DNA of 37,244 nt, from positions 78,742-115,985 of the forward strand of contig JAEUSI010000001.1 of the NCBI GenBank assembly GCA_016788375.1. The letters are read 5' to 3'. The stretch comes from Ignavibacteria bacterium (GTDB lineage: Bacteria; Bacteroidota; Ignavibacteria; Tepidaquicellales; Tepidaquicellaceae). The stretch's first letter is position 1. Each line of letters opens with the position of its first letter. The notes under the pieces are model-generated. The model ran no database searches. It was given only the letters and a program-made list of their open reading frames with translations, and was not told the origin of the DNA. Positions 4,536 through 25,937 of this stretch are shown here, piece after piece. A program made the position numbers and the translations under genes.

Positions 4536-6128
4536 ATGCAAATGCAAACTACAGAAACTTCAGCAAAAGACAAAAACAACATTCTATGGGTTGATGATGA
4601 GATAGAATCTTTGAAATCAAACATTCTGTTTCTGAAACAGAAAGGTTATAATGTTAAGGAAGCTACAAACGGCGAAGACGGGATAAATCTTATCAAAGAC
4701 AATGAATTTGATCTTGTTTTCCTTGATGAAATGATGACAGGAATGGGAGGACTTGAGACACTGCTAGAAATCAAAGATATAAAACCCAGCCTTCCGGTTG
4801 TCATGGTTACTAAAAATGAAACCGAAAGTCTGATGGAAGATGCCATAGGTAATAAAATTTCAGATTACCTCATAAAACCCGTAAATCCTACACAGCTGCT
4901 GCTTGTATGCAAGAAAATGCTTGAGTCAAAGCGTCTCAAGGGAAGTCAGGTATCAAAAGATTACATACAGGAGTTCAATAAGATTTCCATGAAAATTATG
5001 GAAGGTCCGGACTGGAAAGAATGGATAGACATACATATGACAATGACAGGCTGGGAGCTTGAACTTGATGAACATCCTGATCTGGGATTAAAGCAGACTA
5101 TTCTTACACAGAAAAGAGACTGCAATACCGAATTTTCCAAATTTGTCGAAAAGAATTATCTCGGCTGGCTTAATACAAAGGAAAACAGACCTATACTTTC
5201 AACCGAAATAGTTGATAAGTTTGTAATACCGGAACTGGATGAAAACAAATCTGTATTCCTGTTTGTAATAGACTGCATGAGAATGGATCAGTGGATGGTA
5301 ATGGAAAAATATCTTTACGATTATTTCAAAATCACAAAGGATTTTCATTATTCCATTCTTCCTACAGCTACCCCATACAGCCGGAATGCAATATTTTCGG
5401 GGCTTTTTCCTTCAGAAATCGAACAGCATTATCCCGAACTCTGGAAGAAGAATGATGATGATGAAAACAGCAAAAATAATTATGAAAAGGAATTTCTTGC
5501 GAAACTGCTTGAGCGCAGAAGAATTAAGCTGAAAAATGAGATTAAATACACGAAGATAATGGATTCAAATTTCGGCAGAGGCATAGAAAGCAAGATTATG
5601 TCTTACTGTAATAATCAGCTCAATGCAATTGTAATTAATTTTGTAGATATGATTGCCCATTCAAGAAGCGATAATGCAATATTAAAGGAAATCGCTCCTG
5701 ATGAATCTGCATACAGATCTCTTACTGAATCCTGGTTTGAACATTCATCATTCTTCGGAATGCTCCGTCAGCTGTCCGGAAGGAAAGACATTAAAATAAT
5801 AATCACAACTGATCACGGAAGCATAAGATGTCTTCACGGGGTTAAAGCCATGGGTGATAAGGAAACCTCAACAAATCTCAGGTATAAATGCGGAAGGAAT
5901 GTCAAAGCGGATTCTCGTCATGCATTATTTATCAGAAATCCGCAGGAATACAAGCTTCCGAAACGAAGCGGAATGATCAGCTATATAATTGCAAAAGAAG
6001 ACTTTTACTTTGTTTATCCAACTGATTATCACAAATACCTTAATCAGTATAATGATACATTTCAGCACGGCGGAATATCAATTGATGAAATGATACTTCC
6101 GGTTATAACTCTTGAATCAAAAGCTTGA
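4536..6128 (+). CDS. porX: PorX-type response regulator with PglZ/alkaline-phosphatase-fold effector domain
   Basis: This is a two-domain regulator of 530 residues. Residues 13-130 are a receiver domain: acidic pair D20/D21, phospho-acceptor D64 (LVFLDEMM), switch T92 and K114 in DYLIKP. Residues about 238-525 are a PglZ domain of the alkaline-phosphatase superfamily: metal ligand D246 (FVIDCMRMD), nucleophile threonine at 277 or 279 (LPTATPYSRN), the TTDHGS motif and a terminal GGISIDEMILP. Family knowledge: this fusion is PorX, which acts with the PorY kinase to control T9SS and has zinc phosphodiesterase activity in Porphyromonas gingivalis. Two Mets lie close together; 4542 is better spaced (6 bases) from AAGGA than 4536. 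It overlaps tsaE by four bases. No kinase gene is visible here. Confidence 0.92.
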   Translation: MQMQTTETSAKDKNNILWVDDEIESLKSNILFLKQKGYNVKEATNGEDGINLIKDNEFDLVFLDEMMTGMGGLETLLEIKDIKPSLPVVMVTKNETESLMEDAIGNKISDYLIKPVNPTQLLLVCKKMLESKRLKGSQVSKDYIQEFNKISMKIMEGPDWKEWIDIHMTMTGWELELDEHPDLGLKQTILTQKRDCNTEFSKFVEKNYLGWLNTKENRPILSTEIVDKFVIPELDENKSVFLFVIDCMRMDQWMVMEKYLYDYFKITKDFHYSILPTATPYSRNAIFSGLFPSEIEQHYPELWKKNDDDENSKNNYEKEFLAKLLERRRIKLKNEIKYTKIMDSNFGRGIESKIMSYCNNQLNAIVINFVDMIAHSRSDNAILKEIAPDESAYRSLTESWFEHSSFFGMLRQLSGRKDIKIIITTDHGSIRCLHGVKAMGDKETSTNLRYKCGRNVKADSRHALFIRNPQEYKLPKRSGMISYIIAKEDFYFVYPTDYHKYLNQYNDTFQHGGISIDEMILPVITLESKA

Positions 6129-14175: not shown

Positions 14176-14910
14176 TTAATTGTTCAACAGTCTTAAAATA
14201 TTTCCCGAAAAGATAAGCTCTTTGTCAGAAGCGGGTATATCCAGGCTTTCGACTACGGGAATATACATAAGCGGAAGACCAAGATTATAATCACTTCCGA
14301 AAACAACTTTTTCAGCGCCGATTTTTCTGACAACTTTATTTACAAAATAAAATTCTCTCACGGATTCGGTACCAAGATATACATTATCAAATTTTTTATT
14401 TTTAACTTCATCCGCGCATTCAAGATAAATTGAAGGCTGATCGCCTCCGAGATGAGCAAGAATCAATACCAGTTCAGGATATTTTCCCGCAACTTCAAGA
14501 GGATAATTATATCCCGCAATTTCCTTCCATCTGCCGCAGTGAACAATAACAGGCTTATTGTATTCGCATGCAAGTTCAAGATATTTTTTATATGACTGGT
14601 CGGTTATTCTTTTTCTCTGAACAGAAGGGTGAATTTTAAACAGTGAGATTTTATCCATATTGTTTTTCAAAAATTCGTCCAGCTTTTTATCCTCCGGATT
14701 GATCCATGCATTAAAATAAAACTTAAAATCTGTCAAATCATAAACTTCTTTCAGTAAATGCTCGTTCGGAGTGTTATCAGCCGGCATGCATACGGCAGAA
14801 TCTACACCGGATTTTTTCATGACAGTAACTGCTTCCTGAACGTTAGATTCATAATTGTAAAATAATTCACTCCATTTTCCTATATGAATATGTGCGTCAA
14901 TAATTTTCAT
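14176..14910 (-). CDS. Amidohydrolase-family metal-dependent hydrolase (TIM barrel)
   Basis: This 244-residue protein carries the metal ligands of the amidohydrolase-2 group: H7 and H9 in IDAHIHIG, H124 in VIVHCGRW, H153 in LAHLGG, and D207 in FGSDYN. These are ordered as in TIM-barrel hydrolases and decarboxylases of the ACMSD/LigW type. The substrate is unknown. Its start overlaps the stop of the upstream NDP-sugar epimerase by one base, so it is the last gene of the long minus-strand run. That context suggests action on a sugar or surface metabolite, but this is inference. Confidence 0.82.
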   Translation of the reverse strand: MKIIDAHIHIGKWSELFYNYESNVQEAVTVMKKSGVDSAVCMPADNTPNEHLLKEVYDLTDFKFYFNAWINPEDKKLDEFLKNNMDKISLFKIHPSVQRKRITDQSYKKYLELACEYNKPVIVHCGRWKEIAGYNYPLEVAGKYPELVLILAHLGGDQPSIYLECADEVKNKKFDNVYLGTESVREFYFVNKVVRKIGAEKVVFGSDYNLGLPLMYIPVVESLDIPASDKELIFSGNILRLLNN

Positions 14911-15881
14911 CAGAAATTATTTATTTTTTTCCTGTACCAGTTATAAGTTCTTATTATACCTTCATTCAGATCCACTTTCGGTGAAAAACCGAGAAGGTTT
15001 TTAGCTTTTTCGATGCTGGGAATTCTCAGTTCAACGTCAACATAATTTTTCGGAACATAAACAATTCCGGATTTTGATTTGCAAAGAGTTACGATTTTTT
15101 CCGCAAGTGACGAAATAGTAATAGTTCCTTTCGGATTTCCGATATTGAATACTTCCCCGACGGCATTTTTATTACTGAGGCATAAATCAATTCCGTCAAT
15201 CATATCGTCGATATAGCACCATGATCTTATCTGGTCTCCCTCACCGTGAATTTCGATATTTTTATTTTTAACAACATTTTTTATGAATATCTGTATGGCA
15301 CCTTCGCCTACCTGACCCGGTCCGTAAATATTAAAAGGTCTTATTGTTACACAAGGATACCCGTATTGTTTATAATAACTGTGAACAAGATGTTCTCCGG
15401 TAACTTTACTTATTGAATAAGTCCATCTTCCCTCTCCAACCGGAGCAAAGTTTGTCTGGGATTTTTCACTGGATTTGTAAGCGTATGCTCCGAGAACTTC
15501 ACTTGTAGAAAAGTCCAGAAACCTTTCAAGCTTGCCGGAATATTTTTCCAGGGCTCGCAGAAGATTTAAAGTTCCGTTGATATTTACATCAAGAGTCTTA
15601 ACGGGATCAATTATTACAGTATCAATACCTGCAACAGCTGCAAGATGTACAACAACCTGAGGTTTGAAATCTTCACATTCTTTACGGAGAGAATCCGGGT
15701 TAAGGACATCATCCTTTACAATTTTAATATTTTTTGACTTAAGTTTTTTAAACTTAAGCGAATCCCTGTAAAAATTGTCGTATATAAGAATTTCATTATT
15801 CCTGTAAAGCTTTTCAGCAAGTGTGCTTCCTATAAATCCTGCACCTCCTGTCAGAAGGATTCTCTTGTTTTTCAGTTTCAA
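14910..15881 (-). CDS. NAD-dependent NDP-sugar epimerase/dehydratase (extended SDR)
   Basis: This 323-residue extended short-chain dehydrogenase has the NAD-binding TGGAGFIG (residues 11-18), D-loop LIYDNF, the DFSTSE segment carrying the catalytic Ser/Thr, and the YxxxK pair Y155/K159 (YSISK). The segment RPFNIYGPGQVGEGAIQIF is characteristic of nucleotide-sugar epimerases and dehydratases. The exact sugar cannot be deduced. UDP-glucose 4-epimerase, UDP-glucuronate decarboxylase-like and dTDP-sugar enzymes are all close. It overlaps the amidohydrolase gene by one base and follows the acyltransferase gene by 12 bases, so it belongs to the surface-glycan operon. Confidence 0.85.
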   Translation of the reverse strand: MKLKNKRILLTGGAGFIGSTLAEKLYRNNEILIYDNFYRDSLKFKKLKSKNIKIVKDDVLNPDSLRKECEDFKPQVVVHLAAVAGIDTVIIDPVKTLDVNINGTLNLLRALEKYSGKLERFLDFSTSEVLGAYAYKSSEKSQTNFAPVGEGRWTYSISKVTGEHLVHSYYKQYGYPCVTIRPFNIYGPGQVGEGAIQIFIKNVVKNKNIEIHGEGDQIRSWCYIDDMIDGIDLCLSNKNAVGEVFNIGNPKGTITISSLAEKIVTLCKSKSGIVYVPKNYVDVELRIPSIEKAKNLLGFSPKVDLNEGIIRTYNWYRKKINNF

Positions 15882-15893
15882 TTTTAACTGGTT

Positions 15894-16871
15894 TTAATTT
15901 ATGTCAAGTTCAAATGATTTTCTCAGAAATCCGTTTGCCAGAAAATTTTTTTTAAAAGCAAACAATCCGTCAATCAGTTTTCCGCCGGAATCAGAAGTAC
16001 CGGTATCATAATATTTAAAATTATTTTCTTTTGCCCACTCAATTGACTTATAAAGAATGAATTCCGATACTCTTTCCATTTTATATTTTTCATCGTCGGC
16101 AAGATAAAAATTCAGAATCATTTCCCTGTTTATGGAAAACAAAAAACAGACAGCTACGACTTTTGAATCAAGTTTTGCAGAGAAAAGAATAATTTCATTT
16201 TTAAAATTTTTTTTAAGGTATATAAGTTCTTCGAAGGAATGAGTCGGATAAACTCCTTTGAGTTTTCTGTTTTCGAATAATATTTCATAATATTCCGCAA
16301 AATTTTCTTCTGTTAAATCCTCAGATACAATTTCAAGATCAATTTTTTTAAGGGTTTTCCTGATTGACCTTTTTTTAGGTTCGGAAATTTTTCTGAATTC
16401 AAAATTCTCAAGATCAATAATGTTTGAAACAGATACGGAGGAAACCCTGAATCCGTTTTTAATAAGCGCATATTCTGTTTCTTCATTTGGATTCTTATTA
16501 TAAAGAAACGGCGGATTTTTCAGGATGCACTTGTTAAAATTATTTAATCTGAGATAATCAATAAAACTTTCCGTAATCTCAATAAATTTTATAAGATTGA
16601 TTTTTTTCTTCCAGAGAAAACCGCCAAAACTTACACCTTCACAGGAATTGTATATCTTCTTATCTTCCGAAGATTTTTCACAGCCTATCATAATTGCGAG
16701 AACTTTATTCGAATCACTGTCCTTGAATTTCAGATGATGCCATTTAATTTTTTTATTAAATACATCATTATAAGAATTAAATTTATAATCAAAAAACAGA
16801 TTGTACTGATTCCTCAGAAACTCTTTCCACTCAAGATCACTTTCAATGTCTGTTTTAATTACACTTATCAT
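15894..16871 (-). CDS. FemAB/GNAT-like acyltransferase
   Basis: This 325-residue protein resembles the GNAT/FemAB-like group often found in polysaccharide loci. The C-terminal part contains the GNAT-type elements: a strand segment with KVVAVCFLFSI, followed by FILYKSIEWAKENNFKYYDTG and GLFAFKKNFLANGF, the latter typical of FemAB/GNAT relatives. No signal peptide or membrane segment is seen. Such enzymes transfer an acyl or aminoacyl group to a sugar amine or lipid-linked intermediate. It starts three bases from the glycosyltransferase stop and ends 12 bases from the epimerase. Its substrate is not identifiable from sequence. Confidence 0.68.
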   Translation of the reverse strand: MISVIKTDIESDLEWKEFLRNQYNLFFDYKFNSYNDVFNKKIKWHHLKFKDSDSNKVLAIMIGCEKSSEDKKIYNSCEGVSFGGFLWKKKINLIKFIEITESFIDYLRLNNFNKCILKNPPFLYNKNPNEETEYALIKNGFRVSSVSVSNIIDLENFEFRKISEPKKRSIRKTLKKIDLEIVSEDLTEENFAEYYEILFENRKLKGVYPTHSFEELIYLKKNFKNEIILFSAKLDSKVVAVCFLFSINREMILNFYLADDEKYKMERVSEFILYKSIEWAKENNFKYYDTGTSDSGGKLIDGLFAFKKNFLANGFLRKSFELDIN

Positions 16872-16874
16872 ATT

Positions 16875-18554
16875 TTAGTTTTCATACAGTTCATAACCGG
16901 GAGAACTTACTGCAAGCCTGAATTCGGAAGGTATAAACTGATCCGAATTCCCGTATACAGCCCTGTTAATTCCTTCTTTTTCAACTATAATTTCGTATCC
17001 GCCTGCAGGAAGCTGTTTTAGTTTTTCTTTTACATTTTCATAACCTTCCTTATTATCCAGAAAAATCAGTTCATATTCATTGTTTTCCCAGCCGAGATCC
17101 AGTCCCTTAAAATAAAAACTGAACTGAGGATTATGCCTGTAATTTGTTGCAACATATACAATTTTATTTCTGCCGCTTTTCTCGATTTGATTTTTTACTT
17201 CTGAAATGTGAAAATCATTTTCCCAGAACGGTACATGAATGAGATAATATAAATTCAGTATCAGAAAGAATCCAAATATAAATATATAAATTGCTTTTTG
17301 TAGTTCAATTTTATCTGCGATAATTGCTGCCAGAAAATATAATAAAGTTAAAACTAATGCCGTTGAAATAAGTATGAGAAGCTTATTTTCTTCATATAAA
17401 AAGCTTTTGATTTCGGGTCTGACTGATTCAGTTGCATACCAGAATATGTTCAAAATAAGAGCTGTTATCAGAGTTCTCTTTAAAATAAAATTTTTCTTAT
17501 CTATCTGGCTTATGCAGGAAGTCATCAGCAGGCATCCGGGAGTCAAAATAAGAAGCACATAAACTTCAAGTTTTGTTTTAAAAAGAGCAAGTATAAGCAA
17601 ACCTGTCAGAAACCAAATCCATAAAATTATCTTTCCGGTACTGAGAGAGCGGAATGATTTTAAATCAATATACATTGAAAAAAATATCAGAACGCTAAAA
17701 GGGATTATTGTTAACAGATAATTAATATGATACAGTACACCTGAATTTTTTTGGTTCATTTCCACTCCGTAAACAGCCCTGTCATAGATATGAAATTTGA
17801 AAAAAAAGTCCGTGAAATCACTTCCGTATTTTGCAAGCATAAAAATGTGCCATGGCAGTGCTATTAATATTCCGATGAAAACAAGAAATACAATATCCTT
17901 AAATCTGAAATTTACTTTATCTTTTACAAAGAACCAGCTGATCACTAAAATCATAGGGATATAAAATCCGACGAGAATTTTTACCATCAGACAGCAGCCG
18001 AATGAAACAGCACTTAATACAAGATAGCGGTAATTGAGAGATTCATTAAATTTGATAAATGTATATATTGAAAATAAAATAAAGAAAGTATAAGGATAGT
18101 CAAACTGAAATCTTTTCGAGAAGACATTAAAAATAATATTGCTGCAGAAAATCAATGATGCATAAAAAGCTGTTTTAGAATCATAAATTTTTTTTCCCGC
18201 TGACATTATAAGTACAACACAAAGGAGGCTGAATATAAAAGGAATAATTTTAAGAGCGAATGAATTGATGCCGAAAATTAGCGTGGAAAAATATCCGATC
18301 CAGATGAGAAGCGGTGGATGTGATCCTGAATAAAACCTGCCGACAGAATGAGAACTCTGATCAAAAAAATCCCCGTTTAAATGTATAGAAAGAACTCTTG
18401 TCGCATACATTCCTTCATCCCACGGCTGAATATCGGAGAAAATAATTCCGGGAAGTTTTACTGCGCATAAAAAAACAACGATAAAAATTATCAACTTTCG
18501 AAAATTAATATCGTTGCTTATAAAATTATCGGCATTTGAGTAAAAGTCGGACAT
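16875..18554 (-). CDS. Membrane glycosyltransferase, GT39/ArnT-like (polyprenyl-phosphate sugar donor)
   Basis: This 559-residue protein has about ten to twelve hydrophobic segments in the first 420 residues and a soluble C-terminal region of about 120 residues. The first periplasmic loop carries the acidic pair D46/E47 in QPWDEGMYATR, followed by a SHPPLL motif near residue 80, as in ArnT and other dolichyl/undecaprenyl-phosphate mannosyl- or arabinosyltransferase relatives. Family knowledge: such enzymes move a sugar from a polyprenyl phosphate to lipid A, protein or other acceptors on the periplasmic side. It is 27 bases downstream of a PorV-like gene and 3 bases upstream of an acyltransferase gene. 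The acceptor is unknown; a T9SS-linked glycan or LPS is possible. Confidence 0.85.
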   Translation of the reverse strand: MSDFYSNADNFISNDINFRKLIIFIVVFLCAVKLPGIIFSDIQPWDEGMYATRVLSIHLNGDFFDQSSHSVGRFYSGSHPPLLIWIGYFSTLIFGINSFALKIIPFIFSLLCVVLIMSAGKKIYDSKTAFYASLIFCSNIIFNVFSKRFQFDYPYTFFILFSIYTFIKFNESLNYRYLVLSAVSFGCCLMVKILVGFYIPMILVISWFFVKDKVNFRFKDIVFLVFIGILIALPWHIFMLAKYGSDFTDFFFKFHIYDRAVYGVEMNQKNSGVLYHINYLLTIIPFSVLIFFSMYIDLKSFRSLSTGKIILWIWFLTGLLILALFKTKLEVYVLLILTPGCLLMTSCISQIDKKNFILKRTLITALILNIFWYATESVRPEIKSFLYEENKLLILISTALVLTLLYFLAAIIADKIELQKAIYIFIFGFFLILNLYYLIHVPFWENDFHISEVKNQIEKSGRNKIVYVATNYRHNPQFSFYFKGLDLGWENNEYELIFLDNKEGYENVKEKLKQLPAGGYEIIVEKEGINRAVYGNSDQFIPSEFRLAVSSPGYELYEN

Positions 18555-18581: not shown

Positions 18582-19490
18582 TCAGAAATTCATCCCAAGT
18601 GAAAATGTATTGCTGTTACCGAAATTGCTGCTGTAAGGGACGAAGGCATAATCAAAATAAACCCCTTTGTATTTAAAACCGATTCCGGTTGTAAAATTTT
18701 TGTTTTCATATTCTGTCTGATAACCCATTCTTAAGAAAATGAAATCTTTGTATCCTGCTTCTGCGCCGGTATTAATGTGAAAACTTCCGCCGTCAAGAAC
18801 TGTAAACCCGTCAAGTCCGAGTAGAAAACTGAATTTTTCTTTTTCAAATTTATAACTTCCGCCGAATCTGAGAGCAGAAGGTAGTTTTGTTTCTTCATAA
18901 AGCAGTGCATTGACAGATCCGATATTGACTAAAACCAGTGCAACACTCAGATTATCTTTGATATAACTTGTTCCAAAGTCAAAAGCAAAACCGGACGCTT
19001 CATCAACATAAATTTTTTCAAAAAGATACTTACCCGTAATCCCTAAATTAAAATTTTTGTTAATCCTGTAACTAAAGGACAAACCGGTGGATAAATTGCT
19101 AGCGTCAAATGTTTCTATTGCAGCGCCAGGAATATTCCGGATTTCAAGATTACTGATTGACGTTGAAAAAACACCAACACCAAGCGCGACTTTACTGCTT
19201 AACGGAAATTTTAAAGCCAGAAAATCCGTATTGACATCCTGAACAAGTTCATTATGCATTATGATTACATTGCTTTTATCACCAACACTGAATCTGGACG
19301 GGTTGTAAATAAAAGCGGTAGCGTCATCAGTAACTGACGAAAAAGCTTCACCCATTGAAATAGCTCTTGCTCCGGCTCCTAATTTCAAAAAAGCAAGCCC
19401 GGTATTTCCGGGACCGTCATTCTGTGCTTTTAAATGCTGAGCAGAAACTGACAGCACGATAAAACATATTATTAATTTAATTACTCTCAT
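18582..19490 (-). CDS. PorV/PorQ-like outer-membrane beta-barrel (T9SS-associated)
   Basis: This 302-residue protein has a signal peptide (MRVIKLIICFIVLSVSA then QHLKAQ). The start of the mature region, LKLGAGARAISMGEAF, followed by ATAFIYNPS, matches the PorV/PorQ family, related to FadL-type 14-strand barrels. The rest is alternating beta strands ending in GNSNTFSLGMNF, with a C-terminal phenylalanine as for outer-membrane barrels. Family knowledge: PorV shuttles folded T9SS cargo from the translocon to the sortase PorU, and PorQ helps present A-LPS. Being the second of two tandem copies behind a putative cargo gene, it might be a dedicated carrier. The spacing of 2 bases to the upstream homologue implies one transcript. 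Confidence 0.85.
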   Translation of the reverse strand: MRVIKLIICFIVLSVSAQHLKAQNDGPGNTGLAFLKLGAGARAISMGEAFSSVTDDATAFIYNPSRFSVGDKSNVIIMHNELVQDVNTDFLALKFPLSSKVALGVGVFSTSISNLEIRNIPGAAIETFDASNLSTGLSFSYRINKNFNLGITGKYLFEKIYVDEASGFAFDFGTSYIKDNLSVALVLVNIGSVNALLYEETKLPSALRFGGSYKFEKEKFSFLLGLDGFTVLDGGSFHINTGAEAGYKDFIFLRMGYQTEYENKNFTTGIGFKYKGVYFDYAFVPYSSNFGNSNTFSLGMNF

Positions 19491-19492
19491 TA

Positions 19493-20569
19493 TTATTTAA
19501 ATTTAAACACAATTCCTATATTCTGAATAAGATCATGGCTGAAAGGTTCAACTTGTAAAGCGTAATCAAATCCGAGATTAATTGTTTTCGAAAAACTTTT
19601 ATCAAGACTCAAGCCGAACGAAGGCTTAAGATTTCCCGAAAAATCTTCTGCCGAGAAATCAATTCTGTCCATTCCTGCTCTGAGTTTAAGCTGTTTAATA
19701 ACGTTGATTTCAACTCCGAATCTGAAAACAGTATTGTTACTGTTTTCAATAAGATCTGTACCGGTTGAATCATCAGCAGGAACTGTCAAAGACGGATTAA
19801 AATACTGCTGAATTGCAAGGGAAGCAATTCCCAGATTTTTGGGAAGAAGATAAGACCCTCCGAGGTTAAGAACGGCGGGGAATTTATCTTCGGTTGTATT
19901 TCCGTTACTTCCGTACAATTGCGAAGTCTGCCATTCATATTTTGCGCCTAAATCTATAAAACTTAATCCGAAAGAAAGATTTTCGCCTGCTTTATAAACA
20001 CCTCCGAAATCAACAGCAAATGAAGTTGCTGTAACATCTTCATAAAGTTTAGCATAATAAAGTTTAAAACCTATGCCGGCTGATATTTTATCGGATAATA
20101 TAAATCCTGTTCCGAGATAAAATTCATTTTCAAAAGTAGAAAGCATTCCGGTTTGACGTGTATCATTATCTCTTGAATCAATATCACCTACACCTGCATT
20201 CAGCCAGGCAATTGTAATTCCGGCACCGCCTGATTTCTGTTTTGGTAATTTAAATTTTTTTGTAAATCCGAGAAAATTTAGTTTTCTGTCAAAACTCAGG
20301 AAAGTGTAGCTTAAATCTACTTTCCCGTCTTCCTGAAAAGTTGATAAAGCCGGATTATATATTCCGCTTGTACCTCCGAACACATCAGAAACCACAGCAT
20401 TACTCAGTCCGAGACCTCTGGTAGTGAAGCCCATTCTTGAAAAAGCACCTGCATAGCTGCCCAGCTGAGCATAACCTGAACAGGTAAAGAGTAACAACAT
20501 CATTATTATAAAAAGTTTTTTCAATGTATTAAAAGAAATTACAAATTCGATTCTGATAAAACTGAACAT
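19493..20569 (-). CDS. PorV/PorQ-like outer-membrane beta-barrel (second copy, more diverged)
   Basis: This 358-residue frame probably starts later than its first Met. A TTG at 20524 (residue 16) gives LKKLFIIMMLLLFTCSGYAQ, a clean signal peptide. The mature region begins with SYAGAFSRMGFTTRGLGLSNAV and GGTSGIYNPA, a diverged form of the PorV/PorQ N-terminal motif. The remainder is beta-barrel-like strands ending in a short FKFK. It is not a recent duplicate of the neighbouring copy: overall the two sequences differ strongly. It lies 12 bases after the T9SS propeller gene and two bases before the other barrel gene. Confidence 0.78.
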   Translation of the reverse strand: MFSFIRIEFVISFNTLKKLFIIMMLLLFTCSGYAQLGSYAGAFSRMGFTTRGLGLSNAVVSDVFGGTSGIYNPALSTFQEDGKVDLSYTFLSFDRKLNFLGFTKKFKLPKQKSGGAGITIAWLNAGVGDIDSRDNDTRQTGMLSTFENEFYLGTGFILSDKISAGIGFKLYYAKLYEDVTATSFAVDFGGVYKAGENLSFGLSFIDLGAKYEWQTSQLYGSNGNTTEDKFPAVLNLGGSYLLPKNLGIASLAIQQYFNPSLTVPADDSTGTDLIENSNNTVFRFGVEINVIKQLKLRAGMDRIDFSAEDFSGNLKPSFGLSLDKSFSKTINLGFDYALQVEPFSHDLIQNIGIVFKFK

Positions 20570-20581
20570 AAAATTTATTTA

Positions 20582-22201
20582 CTACTGAAGTAGAATTATC
20601 TTACCCCAGACCGGGTTTTCATTATCAAATTCAACACGATAAAAATAAACACCGTTTGCTACCTGATATCCGTTGTCATTAGTACCGTCCCAGGATGTAA
20701 ACAGCACATCAGTTCCGGATCTTGTTGCATTCTGAATCAGAGTCCTGACAGGATTCATGCCGAAATCAAATATTTTTATTGTAATGCTTGAAACATTTGT
20801 CGTGCTCTTATAATAAATCCGTGTAACTTCATCATCCGGCGAGAAGGGATTAGGAGCTGCATAAGTTTTAATGTCCGAAGATAAATCTATCGGAGAAACA
20901 GCGCGAATGATGTTCCACTTACCGATCCATGGCGAGCCGTATTCAACCGTACTTACCAATGCATCTGCGCTGCCTATATACAGAGTGTCACCGATATGAT
21001 TACCGCAGTAAAATGAATTTGTCCTAAGCTGGTCTTTTGTTCTTTCATCATAAATAACTCCTGCTTTAGACCAGTTGAAATTTCCGAAAACAGTTCTCCA
21101 CAATCCTGCATCAGTATACCCGTATGCAATGGAATCCTTAAATGAAATTCCGTTTGTTTTTATATCATCAAGCGTATTGTACCAGTTAGCACCGCCATCA
21201 GAAGAATAACTGAATGCATCAAATTCATCCAGTTCTTCTGCCTGTCTTGTAGCACCCCATACAATTTCCTTGCCGTTATATTTCTGCACTTCCATATTTA
21301 CCACAAAATTTCCTGAGATACCGTTTCCGCTGCCGGTATTTGCATAATTATATTTGTTCCAGTTTACCCCCCAGCTTGAAGACTTATTAATTCCGTCAGC
21401 TGTTCCGACATATAGTGTAGAATCATTTACGGCAGTAATGCTGAAAACTCTTTGATTAAGATTGTCTCTCGGATTAAGGGCAAAAGTATATCCGGCAGTA
21501 TTGATATTAATACTGTCTAGATTATCCGGAGGAAGAAGGACTCTTTCCCACGTAACTCCGTAATCTGTGCTTTTTCTTAATCCCCCGGCAAAACAGCAAA
21601 TCCAAATCGTATAATTTTCGGGATCATTTTTTGTTTTTGTAATTGCAATATCATAAGAAAGATTTTGCTGCGGCACAACAACAGGAAGTGCATAAAGAGT
21701 GTTTGAACCGTAAACAATAACAGAATCTGACCTTAAGTCTACCGGCTGAGGATAAGAGGACCAGCTGTAACCGAAATCGGTTGAAATTTTAATTCCCGTT
21801 CCTGTGGGAACAGAAGAGCCGCTGATTTCCTGACTTATAGCAGTTGAGGCAGCTATCACTTTTTTATTAAGACTAAATCCTGCAATATCATCTTCACCGA
21901 ACGGTGACAAACCGTAATAATACTGATAACTGCTGAAATTATTTACGGTACGCATGAGACCACTTCCTGTGGCAAACCAAACCGTATCTCCGTTAAGCAA
22001 TATATCAGTTATGAAATTGCTTACCGGTGTGCCGGATACATTCGGAATTACAACTTCCGACAATACAAAAGAATTATCATAGTTCTTATTCATAATATTT
22101 CTTCCGGATGTATTTTCGGTAATTTTGTAATCTTCAGCAGTGAAAATGTTCTGAGAAAAACAAATGTTTGCAGAAAGCAATATTATTACAAGATATTTCA
22201 T
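20582..22201 (-). CDS. Secreted Asp-box beta-propeller with FlgD-like C-terminal T9SS domain
   Basis: This 539-residue protein has a signal peptide (MKYLVIILLSANICFSQ). At least four Asp-box (BNR-like) repeats of the form S-x-D-x-G-x-x-W are visible, ending at W147, W218, W281 (degenerate SSSWGVNW) and W340. Together they predict a sortilin/sialidase-type propeller over about residues 40-440. Residues about 447-539 form an Ig-like FlgD-type domain: PNPFSPDDEV, FTSWDGTNDNGY, and NGVYFYRVEF. Such a C-terminus is the typical T9SS target region in Ignavibacteria. The predicted site is the cell surface or medium. ATG overlaps the previous gene's stop by one base (TAATG). Sialidase activity should not be assumed because no catalytic Arg triad was checked. 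Confidence 0.85.
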   Translation of the reverse strand: MKYLVIILLSANICFSQNIFTAEDYKITENTSGRNIMNKNYDNSFVLSEVVIPNVSGTPVSNFITDILLNGDTVWFATGSGLMRTVNNFSSYQYYYGLSPFGEDDIAGFSLNKKVIAASTAISQEISGSSVPTGTGIKISTDFGYSWSSYPQPVDLRSDSVIVYGSNTLYALPVVVPQQNLSYDIAITKTKNDPENYTIWICCFAGGLRKSTDYGVTWERVLLPPDNLDSININTAGYTFALNPRDNLNQRVFSITAVNDSTLYVGTADGINKSSSWGVNWNKYNYANTGSGNGISGNFVVNMEVQKYNGKEIVWGATRQAEELDEFDAFSYSSDGGANWYNTLDDIKTNGISFKDSIAYGYTDAGLWRTVFGNFNWSKAGVIYDERTKDQLRTNSFYCGNHIGDTLYIGSADALVSTVEYGSPWIGKWNIIRAVSPIDLSSDIKTYAAPNPFSPDDEVTRIYYKSTTNVSSITIKIFDFGMNPVRTLIQNATRSGTDVLFTSWDGTNDNGYQVANGVYFYRVEFDNENPVWGKIILLQ

Positions 22202-23022
22202 TAATCAGGCTGAATAAATTTAATGCTGTCGGTCAGAGGGATTCCGGAAATTCCCGAATTATCCTTTACCGTAAAAGTATATTTAAAATATCCGTATGAA
22301 GACGGATCTGAACTGTATGAAACATAATTTGAAAAAGTAAACTGCCCGTTCTGATTATTAAACATCGGAATCGGAGGCAGTGTGACTCCGTTTGGTCTGA
22401 CCGTAACAAATGTAACGTCTCTGATATCGCATAAACCGTCCGGATCACCTGCATTTACGGTAATTGTAAGCAGGGATGAATCACCCGGCAAAGGTCTGAT
22501 AACACTGTCCGGTAAATTTGACGAAATAATTACAGGCGGCTGATTCGCGGAATTTACAACCCTGAAATCTGAAGTAATCAAATTGCTAAATAGACCCGAA
22601 TTATTTTCAGCAAGATATTCAATATTGTATTTCCCTACCAATAAGCATTGTATATTACTTATGCTGACTGAAACAGAATATCTCCCGTCACCTGAAACTG
22701 TGTCCGGACTTATCCCGTTGTCCGACATAAAAAACTGTCCTATCTGAACTTCCTGAGGATTTGTAATTGAACAGATTACATAATTTAAAGGCGAACCTCC
22801 GTTAACATTAACGGCTACAGAAGTATTCAGAATAATCAAAGGGCTTGAAGAAGTTGTAAACACTGTATCCGGATTCTGATAAGGATTAGATATTACAGGT
22901 GCATAAATGGAAGGGTCAATTACGGTATTATTGTTTTCCTCACAAGAATAAAAAATAAAAGCAGCAATTAACGGAATAATTGCTGCATAAACAAATTTAA
23001 TTTTTCTGATATTTATGATAAT
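22201..23022 (-). CDS. Lipoprotein with choice-of-anchor X-like domains and no canonical start codon
   Basis: The frame is open upstream of GTG 22863 to a stop near 23060. Just upstream of that GTG lies a classic lipoprotein signal: charged N-terminus (IRKIK), hydrophobic IIPLIAAFIF, then lipobox YSC (C27 if started at 23022). No ATG, GTG or TTG occurs in this frame between the stop and the lipobox. I place the start at ATT 23022, with ATC 23019 or ATA 23016 as alternatives, giving 273 residues. The mature protein has a DNGISPDTVSGDGRYSVSVS segment as in choice-of-anchor X domains, and an Ig-like domain in the C-terminal half. It overlaps the T9SS propeller gene by one base. It may be a surface lipoprotein partner of that cargo. 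A truncated 220-residue product from the GTG would lose the signal peptide. Confidence 0.68.
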   Translation of the reverse strand: MIINIRKIKFVYAAIIPLIAAFIFYSCEENNNTVIDPSIYAPVISNPYQNPDTVFTTSSSPLIILNTSVAVNVNGGSPLNYVICSITNPQEVQIGQFFMSDNGISPDTVSGDGRYSVSVSISNIQCLLVGKYNIEYLAENNSGLFSNLITSDFRVVNSANQPPVIISSNLPDSVIRPLPGDSSLLTITVNAGDPDGLCDIRDVTFVTVRPNGVTLPPIPMFNNQNGQFTFSNYVSYSSDPSSYGYFKYTFTVKDNSGISGIPLTDSIKFIQPD

Positions 23023-23096: not shown

Positions 23097-23864
23097 TTAT
23101 TTTCTTTTTACTCTTTTAACATCCGGATAAATATTCAATCCCACATCTATGCTTACAATACCCATATATCTTTTAAATCCGGGACCGCCGTTTGAATCGC
23201 CGTCATTTAGATTTAAATTTTCAGTCTGACCGTCAAAAGCTGCTGTATTATCATCATTAAACAGGTTCATCAGATTGTACCTTGCTCCGATATTAAGACC
23301 TAAATTTCTTTTTTTGTTTTTAAACACAAACTCAAGACCGGCTTTAACTTCCATACCCACTCTGAATGAAGATTCAAATGACCTGGCATAATTTAAAAGT
23401 GTATCAGCCGGATTTGGTTCGAAACTTCCGTTAATGATATTTCCCGTGAATCCGATTCCGTAATAGCTTCTGAATCCGTAAGTGCCGAAAAACAAGTATT
23501 CATATCCGGCGTCAATAGTAACAATATCATAACTTGTTTTATTGTAATCGGAAAAATCTGAATTTACCATCCCTTTATAATCAAAGCCGAGATATATTCT
23601 GTCATTTTTCTTTTTACCTGGGCTGTATTTACCGTACAGATAACCACCGAAACCCCATCTCATCCCGTAATTATCTGCAAGATTAAACGAATTCGGAGAA
23701 TAATTTGCTCTTCCGTATGCATCATTTGTTGCTAAATTCCATGCAGGTCCGAATCCTATGACCCAGGAAGGTCTTGAATAAGTATAATATTGTTGTGCAA
23801 ATATATCCTTATTTAGAAACAGAATTGTGACTAATATAAAAATACTGAGTACGATTTTTTTCAT
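23097..23864 (-). CDS. Outer-membrane beta-barrel protein, unknown function
   Basis: This 255-residue protein has a strong signal peptide (MKKIVLSIFILVTILF, cleavage after FAQ). The remainder alternates strands and turns rich in Tyr, Gly and Asn, with a long predicted barrel of about eight to ten strands. The segment RNLGLNIGARYNLMNLF is typical of a membrane strand and hairpin. A near-ideal Shine-Dalgarno AAAGGA lies 6 bases upstream. No function can be assigned. It is the first gene of the minus-strand run and ends 75 bases before the lipoprotein start, so it may or may not be in the same transcript. Confidence 0.68.
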   Translation of the reverse strand: MKKIVLSIFILVTILFLNKDIFAQQYYTYSRPSWVIGFGPAWNLATNDAYGRANYSPNSFNLADNYGMRWGFGGYLYGKYSPGKKKNDRIYLGFDYKGMVNSDFSDYNKTSYDIVTIDAGYEYLFFGTYGFRSYYGIGFTGNIINGSFEPNPADTLLNYARSFESSFRVGMEVKAGLEFVFKNKKRNLGLNIGARYNLMNLFNDDNTAAFDGQTENLNLNDGDSNGGPGFKRYMGIVSIDVGLNIYPDVKRVKRK

Positions 23865-25010: not shown

Positions 25011-25937
25011 ATGAAACAAATCTATTTAACTTTCTTAATTTTGCTGTTAATGGCAGGATTTACAAAAGCTCAACCGGTAGTATGGTCTGAAGGTTTTGAG
25101 ACTTCCGACAGTTTAAATTTACCTTCGGGATGGTCAATTTATTATAATTCACCCCCTACGGATACATTAGATCCGTTCTGGAACTGGACAGTAAGAACTG
25201 TTGGATCATCTCTTCCGGGTTTACAAACCAGTTTAGCTGTAGTTCATTCCGGGACAAAATCAATTGGTGTAAGCTGGTATGCAGGTCAGACAACAACTGG
25301 AATATCAGATGCATGGCTGGTAACAAAGAAAATAAGAAACGTTCCCGCAGACGGTTTATTCAGTTTCTGGGTGACAGGAGGATCTACCAGTTACAGTGAC
25401 AGTGTTTCTATCTGGATAAGCACAGGAGATTCCACACCTGCTTCATTTTTATCAAATCCTAACAATGAAAACCAGAATATTCTATTCCCAATAGGATCAA
25501 CTTACGGATTGTACGAACAATATTTTGTTGATCTGTCCAGCTATGCAGGTCAGAATGTATATATAGGTTTCAGATATAACATGAATACTGCAATAAACGG
25601 ATATTTTGTACAGCTGGATGATGTTGAGTTTCAGGGAACAGTTTCTGTAAATCAAATAGGTTCTATAGTACCGGATAAGTTTTCATTAAATCAGAATTAT
25701 CCTAATCCGTTTAATCCGGTAACTAAAATTACATTTGATCTTCCGAAAAATTCTAATGTAAAACTCACAGTATTCAATTCACTCGGTCAGAAGGTTACGG
25801 AGTTATTCAACGGATTTAAATCTGCAGGTAAGTACGAAGCAGTGTTTGACGGGGGTAATTTAACCAGCGGAACTTATTTTTACAGACTGGAAACAGAATA
25901 TTTTACCGAGACAAAGAAAATGCAACTGATTAAGTAG
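25011..25937 (+). CDS. T9SS-sorted secreted protein with choice-of-anchor J / cleaved-adhesin-like domain
   Basis: This 308-residue protein has a signal peptide (residues 1-21, ending in FTKAQ), then a jelly-roll-like domain over about 22-210 (WSEGFETSDSLNLPSGWS, YAGQNVYIGFRYN and FVQLDDVEF), as in choice-of-anchor J/cleaved adhesin domains. Residues 225-308 form a type A T9SS sorting domain: NQNYPNPFNPVTKITFDLP, LTVFNSLGQKV and a C-terminal KKMQLIK. It should be exported across the outer membrane and attached or released. A strong AAGGAG lies 5 bases before ATG 25011, and a clear terminator follows the stop, so it is a separate expression cassette. It interrupts the complex I cluster between nuoB and nuoC, where no functional link is expected. 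The ligand is unknown. Confidence 0.92.
   Translation: MKQIYLTFLILLLMAGFTKAQPVVWSEGFETSDSLNLPSGWSIYYNSPPTDTLDPFWNWTVRTVGSSLPGLQTSLAVVHSGTKSIGVSWYAGQTTTGISDAWLVTKKIRNVPADGLFSFWVTGGSTSYSDSVSIWISTGDSTPASFLSNPNNENQNILFPIGSTYGLYEQYFVDLSSYAGQNVYIGFRYNMNTAINGYFVQLDDVEFQGTVSVNQIGSIVPDKFSLNQNYPNPFNPVTKITFDLPKNSNVKLTVFNSLGQKVTELFNGFKSAGKYEAVFDGGNLTSGTYFYRLETEYFTETKKMQLIK

Follow-up and report, generated by a model that had tools for sequence, protein, structure and literature searches.

A phylum-wide cassette encoding a propeller protein with a PorU/PorZ-like C-terminal domain, two PorV/PorQ-like barrels, and a putative surface lipoprotein

Introduction

What do two unlike PorV/PorQ-type barrels do when they are encoded directly behind a single propeller protein? 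The question is raised by four genes of an Ignavibacteria bacterium, which lie within the 37,244-nucleotide stretch of contig JAEUSI010000001.1 (positions 78,742 to 115,985 of the forward strand) that we call the window. The initial annotation of this DNA proposed that the genes form a dedicated export cassette of the type IX secretion system (T9SS), with the barrels acting as a cargo-specific shuttle or anchor. We refer to the genes, in their order of transcription, as LIPO (lipoprotein), PROP (propeller), BAR2, and BAR1 (barrels), and to Ignavibacteria as the class. Their order is conserved across the phylum, always in genomes with T9SS components and even where the sortase PorU and its partner PorZ are gone. 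The proposed role of the barrels is plausible, and we favor the view that PROP is held at the cell surface through an uncleaved C-terminal domain (CTD).

Results

The four-gene order is conserved across the phylum

The open reading frame coordinates (18582-23022, minus strand; Table 1) agree with the initial annotation in placing four genes on one strand, LIPO and PROP overlapping by 1 base, PROP and BAR2 lying 12 bases apart, and BAR2 and BAR1 lying 2 bases apart. We fetched 79 loci with PROP, approximately one per genome and from many families within and beyond the class, in a first set of 40 (all from the class) and a second set of 39. The order LIPO-PROP-BAR2-BAR1 was present in 62 of the 79 loci (38 of 40 in the first set and 24 of 39 in the second, one of these 24 carrying an extra, distant PROP-like match), and one further locus of the second set had the four-gene order with a broken PROP. 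The other arrangements were PROP-BAR2-BAR1 without LIPO (7 loci), LIPO-PROP-BAR2 (6 loci), BAR2-LIPO-PROP (2 loci, L204 and L212, a rearrangement that retains the same partners), and LIPO-PROP alone (1 locus). BAR2 adjoined PROP in 78 of the 79 loci, and in L288 (G330:C1:133500-143500) a tandemly doubled LIPO-PROP unit precedes BAR2-BAR1.

PROP was found in 171 of the 395 genomes of the phylum sample, mostly as one copy per genome, with 4 of these matches weak (E values of 1e-16 to 1e-20) and possibly not orthologs; within the class, most genomes carry it, at full or near-full length. The pairwise distances of the propeller, CTD, BAR2, and BAR1 were correlated, with r values of 0.86 to 0.92 across 70 loci. 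These results demonstrate that the cassette consists of orthologous genes, with the domain types described below, that are inherited together and in the same order throughout the phylum.

Six flanking families (FemAB, PMT, dehydratase, amidohydrolase, the 12655 protein, and flippase) accompany the cassette in many class loci. Outside the class, none of the six was found beside the cassette in any of 25 loci, three of them having also been checked at a weak threshold. The absence of the flanks where the cassette order persists provides an internal control against chance linkage. We accordingly do not count the glycan genes that lie downstream (PMT, FemAB, dehydratase, and flippase) as part of the unit, their linkage to it being confined to the class. 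The phylum-wide gene order, together with the placement of both barrels in the PorV/PorQ family (see below), gives strong support to the proposal of a dedicated cassette.

Table 1. Positions in the window of the cassette genes and of their class-level companions
Feature	Description	Position	Strand	Size, basis, or remark
LIPO	Lipoprotein of ~273 amino acids with weak Ig-like domain matches; likely non-ATG start	22201 to ~23022	-	Probably surface exposed
PROP	Signal peptide, predicted 7-bladed Asp-box-type beta-propeller (residues ~46-432), T9SS CTD (~446-539)	20582 to 22201	-	539 amino acids
PROP CTD	Residues ~446-539; PorU/PorZ/FlgD type; best-conserved part	20582 to 20866	-	~94 amino acids
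BAR2	FadL-fold outer membrane barrel, diverged PorV/PorQ-family member	19493 to 20569	-	358 amino acids
BAR1	Second outer membrane barrel, PorV/PorQ family	18582 to 19490	-	302 amino acids
PMT-type glycosyltransferase		16875 to 18554	-	Class-level companion downstream of cassette
FemAB/GNAT-like protein		15894 to 16871	-	Class-level companion downstream of cassette
Sugar dehydratase/epimerase		14910 to 15881	-	Class-level companion downstream of cassette

The CTD of PROP resembles those of PorU and PorZ

The AlphaFold2 model of PROP (mean pLDDT of 89) has 28 strands across residues 64 to 432, which we read as 7 blades, and the sequence scored 30.2 bits against FlgD_ig (cut-off, 27) and weakly against Asp-box profiles, bearing out the earlier description of a propeller with a FlgD-like C-terminal domain. 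When the model was compared to the Protein Data Bank with Foldseek, the sensor propellers BT4663 and BT4673 and PorZ (5m11) were the best matches, followed by GH74 and Ycf48. The PorZ match had an E value of 1.4e-12 and a low TM-score of 0.34, and because query TM-scores were low throughout (~0.2 to 0.45), all of these matches indicate resemblance of fold class only. The glycosylhydrolase-like propeller model NF045728 was matched by all 37 PROP members, the window PROP scoring 32.9 bits against a cut-off of 175.

The CTD was the best-conserved part of the cassette across the 70 loci, with a mean identity of 49%; the propeller reached 37%, and the two barrels reached 38% and 34%. The PorU model was matched by 34 of 37 PROP orthologs, in the window PROP over the C-terminal region of PorU, and in hhalign comparisons to proteins of the same genome the CTD aligned with PorU at a probability of 88, while only the last ~113 residues aligned with PorZ, at a probability of 38. 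The PorZ model NF052228 (cut-off, 260 bits) did not match the window PROP and was matched by 4 of 37 orthologs at E values of 1e-3 or below. Against the type A sorting domain TIGR04183 the window PROP scored 16.6 bits, under the cut-off of 23, with 3 of 37 orthologs matching at E values of 1e-3 or below, and the type B CTD model TIGR04131 was matched by 1 of 37. The uncleaved CTDs of Porphyromonas gingivalis PorU and PorZ are longer (~96 to 108 residues), with an additional hairpin inserted after strand 5 and before strand 6 (PMC11285876). The CTD of PROP spans ~94 residues, and in the model a long loop with a bridge pair, 507/513, lies between strands 499-504 and 517-525; its beta5-beta6 loop, WDGTNDNGYQVANGVY, resembles those of PorU and PorZ, and the WDG...ANGVY loop was aligned with both. 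By its length, the predicted bridge pair at the hairpin site, and the loop alignment, the PROP CTD appears to be of the unprocessed PorU/PorZ kind. PROP is nevertheless not the PorZ of this genome, which encodes a full PorZ elsewhere (G000:C345, 355 bits).

PorV-family barrels in these genomes often lie directly behind genes ending in long-loop CTDs, the numbers other than PROP being small. Among the loci that we fetched, three non-PROP cases had a long-loop CTD next to a barrel, one of them itself a barrel and hence a false match, and none of 12 short-loop CTDs adjoined a barrel. Elsewhere in the same genome (contig C88, L167:10169-14567), a gene for a 1,092-amino-acid protein with a long-loop CTD directly precedes a PorV-family barrel gene, and similar pairs occur in other genomes. 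A second recurring pair, found in L165, L255, L257, and L259 to L261, consists of a gene with a TonB-receptor-like C terminus directly before a PorV-family barrel. The recurrence of PorV-family paralogs beside CTD cargo or TonB-type receptors indicates that cargo/barrel pairing is common. The contrast initially drawn with P. gingivalis, in which single PorV and PorQ proteins serve many cargoes from scattered loci, is thereby weakened, as it is by the presence here of canonical PorV, PorU, PorQ, and PorZ. The unusual features are that a second barrel and a lipoprotein are present and that the set is conserved throughout the phylum.

The two barrels belong to separate clades of the PorV/PorQ family

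BAR1 scored 158.1 bits against the PorV/PorQ family model NF033709 (cut-off, 90), which all 35 of its aligned orthologs matched, and its profile matched PorV of the translocon structure with an E value of 6.6e-24. The BAR2 of the window scored 80.8 bits, yet all 35 aligned BAR2 orthologs likewise matched this model, several of them above the cut-off (e.g., 99.8 in G014 and 98.4 in G375). The BAR1 and BAR2 profiles aligned end to end with a probability of 99.9, and the BAR2 model has a FadL fold, with a TM-score of 0.59 to PorV of the translocon (8gl6_F). Both proteins fell below the cut-offs for canonical PorV (NF033710, 250 bits; BAR1, 71.8, and BAR2, 25.6) and canonical PorQ (NF033711, 220 bits; BAR1, 91.7, and BAR2, 48.3), and in the tree described next they lie outside the PorV and PorQ clades. 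The PorP/SprF model TIGR03519 gave no match to either barrel of the window or to any of 35 BAR2 orthologs, and weak matches to 7 of 35 BAR1 orthologs.

We built a tree from 125 proteins of the PorV family by a quick search, with support given as SH-aLRT values. All BAR1 proteins formed one clade (99), which also includes one unlinked paralog from a genome whose cassette lacks BAR1 (G062). All BAR2 proteins formed another clade (100), and PorV (100) and PorQ (100) were separate. The deep joins are unsure because of the quick search and some long branches; the named clades are well supported. These sequence comparisons provide good support for BAR1 and BAR2 as two phylum-wide clades within the PorV/PorQ family, apart from canonical PorV and PorQ and not among unrelated FadL proteins. 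The barrels are old paralogs, and the tree rules out a recent tandem duplication, as the initial annotation had surmised. They are also not the missing PorV and PorQ of this genome, both of which are encoded elsewhere.

The cassette persists in genomes without PorU and PorZ

The genome that contains the window encodes PorV (258 bits) and PorU on contig C275, PorQ on C66 (243 bits), and PorZ on C345, each scoring above its curated equivalog cut-off. Since these canonical proteins are encoded elsewhere, the cassette comes on top of the attachment complex. PorU was present in 151 of the 171 PROP-carrying genomes and in 258 genomes of the sample in all. In the remaining 20 PROP-carrying genomes, neither PorU nor PorZ was found above its cut-off (PorZ scored 361 to 407 bits in four PorU-containing controls), and the barrels were usually retained. 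SprA, which was searched for in these 20 genomes, was present in all of them. All 171 PROP-carrying genomes thus have either PorU (151) or SprA (20), and a T9SS-independent cassette is ruled out as far as tested.

A PorV-like protein scoring 325 to 349 bits was present in all 10 of the PorU-less genomes tested for it. In two of these 10, G133 and G419, PorV and the two cassette barrels were the only PorV-family proteins found, so PorQ has apparently also been lost there. Seven of the 20 genomes, which belong to family f46, are less clean cases: six encode a PorU-like protein of ~1,700 to 1,800 amino acids with a subthreshold score, and in two a barrel of the PorQ clade is present.

LIPO is lost from the locus together with PorU and PorZ

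That the first gene encodes a lipoprotein, as initially proposed, is supported by its lipobox, ...FIFYSC-EEN, the cysteine of which was at least 90% conserved in 29 aligned sequences. In 24 of 27 LIPO relatives, at least two acidic residues were present at positions +1 to +6 after the cysteine. Acidic residues at this site mark the surface lipoproteins BamH to BamK in a study of the beta-barrel assembly machinery (BAM) (PMC12578637), and by this analogy LIPO is likely surface exposed. No ATG, GTG, or TTG start yields a signal peptide for LIPO (window positions 22990-23022, minus strand), and the start is likely an ATT or ATC near 23019-23022. In the window and in four close relatives, ATT or ATC stands four codons ahead of AGA-AAA, so this clade may have a conserved AUU/AUC start; order-level relatives start with ATG.

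Within family f36, LIPO lay beside PROP in all 13 genomes with PorU and in none of the 10 genomes without PorU and PorZ, the search for LIPO having covered the PROP locus only. A tree of PROP, BAR2, and BAR1 that included 9 of these 10 genomes required three separate changes of PorU state, most simply explained by three independent losses. LIPO has therefore been lost from the PROP locus repeatedly, together with PorU and PorZ. Across 99 loci, LIPO was missing beside PROP in 13: the 10 genomes just described, two loci at contig edges (L097 and L220), and one class locus with PorU (L103).

Other features of the window

Upstream of the cassette, positions 23097-23864 (minus strand) encode a 255-amino-acid signal-peptide protein with no family match, whose conservation at this place is limited to several near relatives. 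At 25011-25937 (plus strand), between nuoB and nuoC of the NADH dehydrogenase operon, lies a gene for a T9SS cargo protein of type A with a choice-of-anchor J domain. At 4536-6128 (plus strand) lies a gene for a protein with a response-regulator receiver and a PglZ domain, which is the architecture of the T9SS regulator PorX.

Discussion

We consider it fairly probable that PROP, once exported by the T9SS, is kept on the surface by one or both of the cassette barrels through an uncleaved CTD, with LIPO linking the complex to the sortase branch. PROP would cross the outer membrane through the SprA/Sov translocon by means of its CTD, which would remain uncut and bound to a PorV/PorQ-type barrel of the cassette, most likely BAR2, thereby keeping PROP on the surface; BAR1 would be a second anchor or a shuttle. 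LIPO would be the surface lipoprotein of the complex, tying or tuning it to the PorU/PorZ branch and required only where that branch exists. In favor of this reading are the conserved gene order, the separate barrel clades, the correlated distances, the resemblance of the CTD to that of PorU, the PorZ fold match, the persistence of the cassette with SprA but without PorU and PorZ, and the repeated loss of LIPO from the locus together with PorU. The ligand of the propeller would likely be a glycan, a guess made from PorZ. We infer export, CTD retention, the barrel partners, complex formation, and the ligand by analogy with known systems, in which the CTD of PorZ is retained by PorQ (PMC10202324, PMC5562754) and type B cargo is held by a PorP/SprF barrel (PMC9143113, PMC12618676).

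Several observations weigh against surface retention of PROP by the cassette barrels. BAR1 was not beside PROP in L203, L206, L214, and the f46 loci, and both barrels were missing at the PROP locus in L205 and G315, so neither barrel is strictly linked to PROP. The BAR2 of the window stays under the PorV/PorQ family cut-off, and its fold matches FadL and TodX about as well as PorV. The correspondence of CTD loop type with barrel adjacency, while consistent with retention, includes few cases other than PROP.

It is also conceivable, if rather doubtful, that the cassette is a second, as yet unnamed core module of the T9SS, in which two barrels would hold the propeller by a sortase-protected CTD and LIPO would be a physical link, acceptor, or adaptor to PorU/PorZ. 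Such a role would explain why LIPO went missing from the locus at all three independent losses of PorU and PorZ. We regard as unlikely an arrangement in which BAR1 and BAR2 are cargo-specific shuttles that take PROP from SprA in place of PorV and then release it or pass it to PorU. Shuttling of type A cargo by PorV is known, and cargo with its own PorP/SprF barrel depends on that barrel for secretion (PMC5562754, PMC12618676); two barrels could be a shuttle and an anchor, and the BAR1 profile matches translocon PorV. However, the PROP CTD is of the uncleaved type, a canonical-like PorV was still present in the PorU-less genomes tested, and the cassette persists without PorU, so processing by PorU cannot be general.

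A role in assembly or quality control, as an accessory of the T9SS or of outer membrane biogenesis comparable to BamG-BamH and with PROP a scaffold like Ycf48, would suit the surface-lipoprotein signature of LIPO (compare BamH to BamK [PMC12578637]), the presence of Ycf48 and scaffold propellers among the PROP fold matches, and the wide conservation of a mostly single-copy cassette. The low score of BAR1 against the BamG model (22.9 bits; cut-off, 250) and the many T9SS-containing genomes without PROP (171 with PROP, compared to 258 with PorU) make it improbable. Still harder to sustain, and in our estimate very improbable, is the view that the barrels import hydrophobic or glycan-derived compounds in the manner of FadL, that PROP and LIPO are their surface binders or PROP a GH74-like glycosidase, and that the T9SS has no part in this beyond exporting PROP. 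FadL and TodX rank beside PorV for BAR2, the heparin sensor BT4663 and GH74 are among the PROP fold matches, and every PROP member matches NF045728; against this, that model's score for PROP is far below its cut-off, the profiles assign every one of the 35 orthologs of either barrel to PorV/PorQ and not FadL, and no SusCD-type genes lie within the unit. Finally, these genomes are rich in T9SS CTD proteins and carry 3 to 18 PorV-family genes each, so that barrels might be expected beside an ordinary, cleaved type A cargo by chance. Such chance linkage is refuted by the tree and by a gene order conserved phylum-wide while the flanks change, and with the subthreshold type A score of PROP this explanation has almost no probability left.

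Returning to retention by a dedicated barrel, the closest known system is PorZ:PorQ of P. gingivalis (with PorU:PorV), which likewise combines a propeller protein carrying an unprocessed CTD with a PorV/PorQ-family barrel, PorQ anchoring PorZ to the membrane (PMC5562754, PMC10202324). PROP differs in having one predicted propeller, compared to two in PorZ, and matches PorZ in the CTD only; the cassette adds a second barrel and a lipoprotein, exists separately from canonical PorZ, PorQ, PorU, and PorV in the same genome, and survives the loss of PorU and PorZ. In the type B loci of Flavobacterium johnsoniae and P. gingivalis, too, the gene for the cargo has a dedicated FadL-fold barrel encoded behind it, there a PorP/SprF-like protein required for secretion of the cargo and for holding it on the surface (PMC12618676, PMC9143113), and several such loci of F. 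johnsoniae have a PorE-like lipoprotein gene nearby, as the cassette has LIPO. The PROP CTD, however, is not of type B, the cassette barrels are of the PorV/PorQ and not the PorP type, and LIPO has weak Ig-like matches only, with no OmpA domain reported. PorV2 (NCBIfam NF052325) is another noncanonical barrel of the PorV/PorQ family, presumed to work for one particular sorting system; against its cut-off of 325 bits, BAR1 scored 81.3 and BAR2 32.8. BamG-BamH of the Bacteroidota BAM complex resembles the cassette in joining a FadL-like barrel with a surface lipoprotein and differs from it in the BamG score given above and in that no BamA gene was seen in the cassette neighborhood.

No Pfam or NCBIfam model names PROP or LIPO, and the barrels fit no equivalog. 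In the open-access literature, to which our search was confined (subscription papers and preprints lay outside it), we found no paper describing the cassette and none that deals with PorV-family paralogs encoded next to cargo in these groups. The principle of a CTD protein with its own barrel is known; the new elements are the two barrels, the lipoprotein, the single-propeller cargo, the phylum-wide distribution, and persistence independent of the sortase. The cassette bears on the question of how PorZ and PorU themselves escape cleavage, for which a review from 2023 suggests protection of the CTD through its binding to a cognate PorV-like barrel (PMC10202324). It offers a natural, phylum-wide set of lineages with and without the sortase, in which this protection idea can be tested directly. 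It adds probable T9SS components beyond those of a few model organisms and indicates that a surface module of this kind can be uncoupled from PorU and PorZ.

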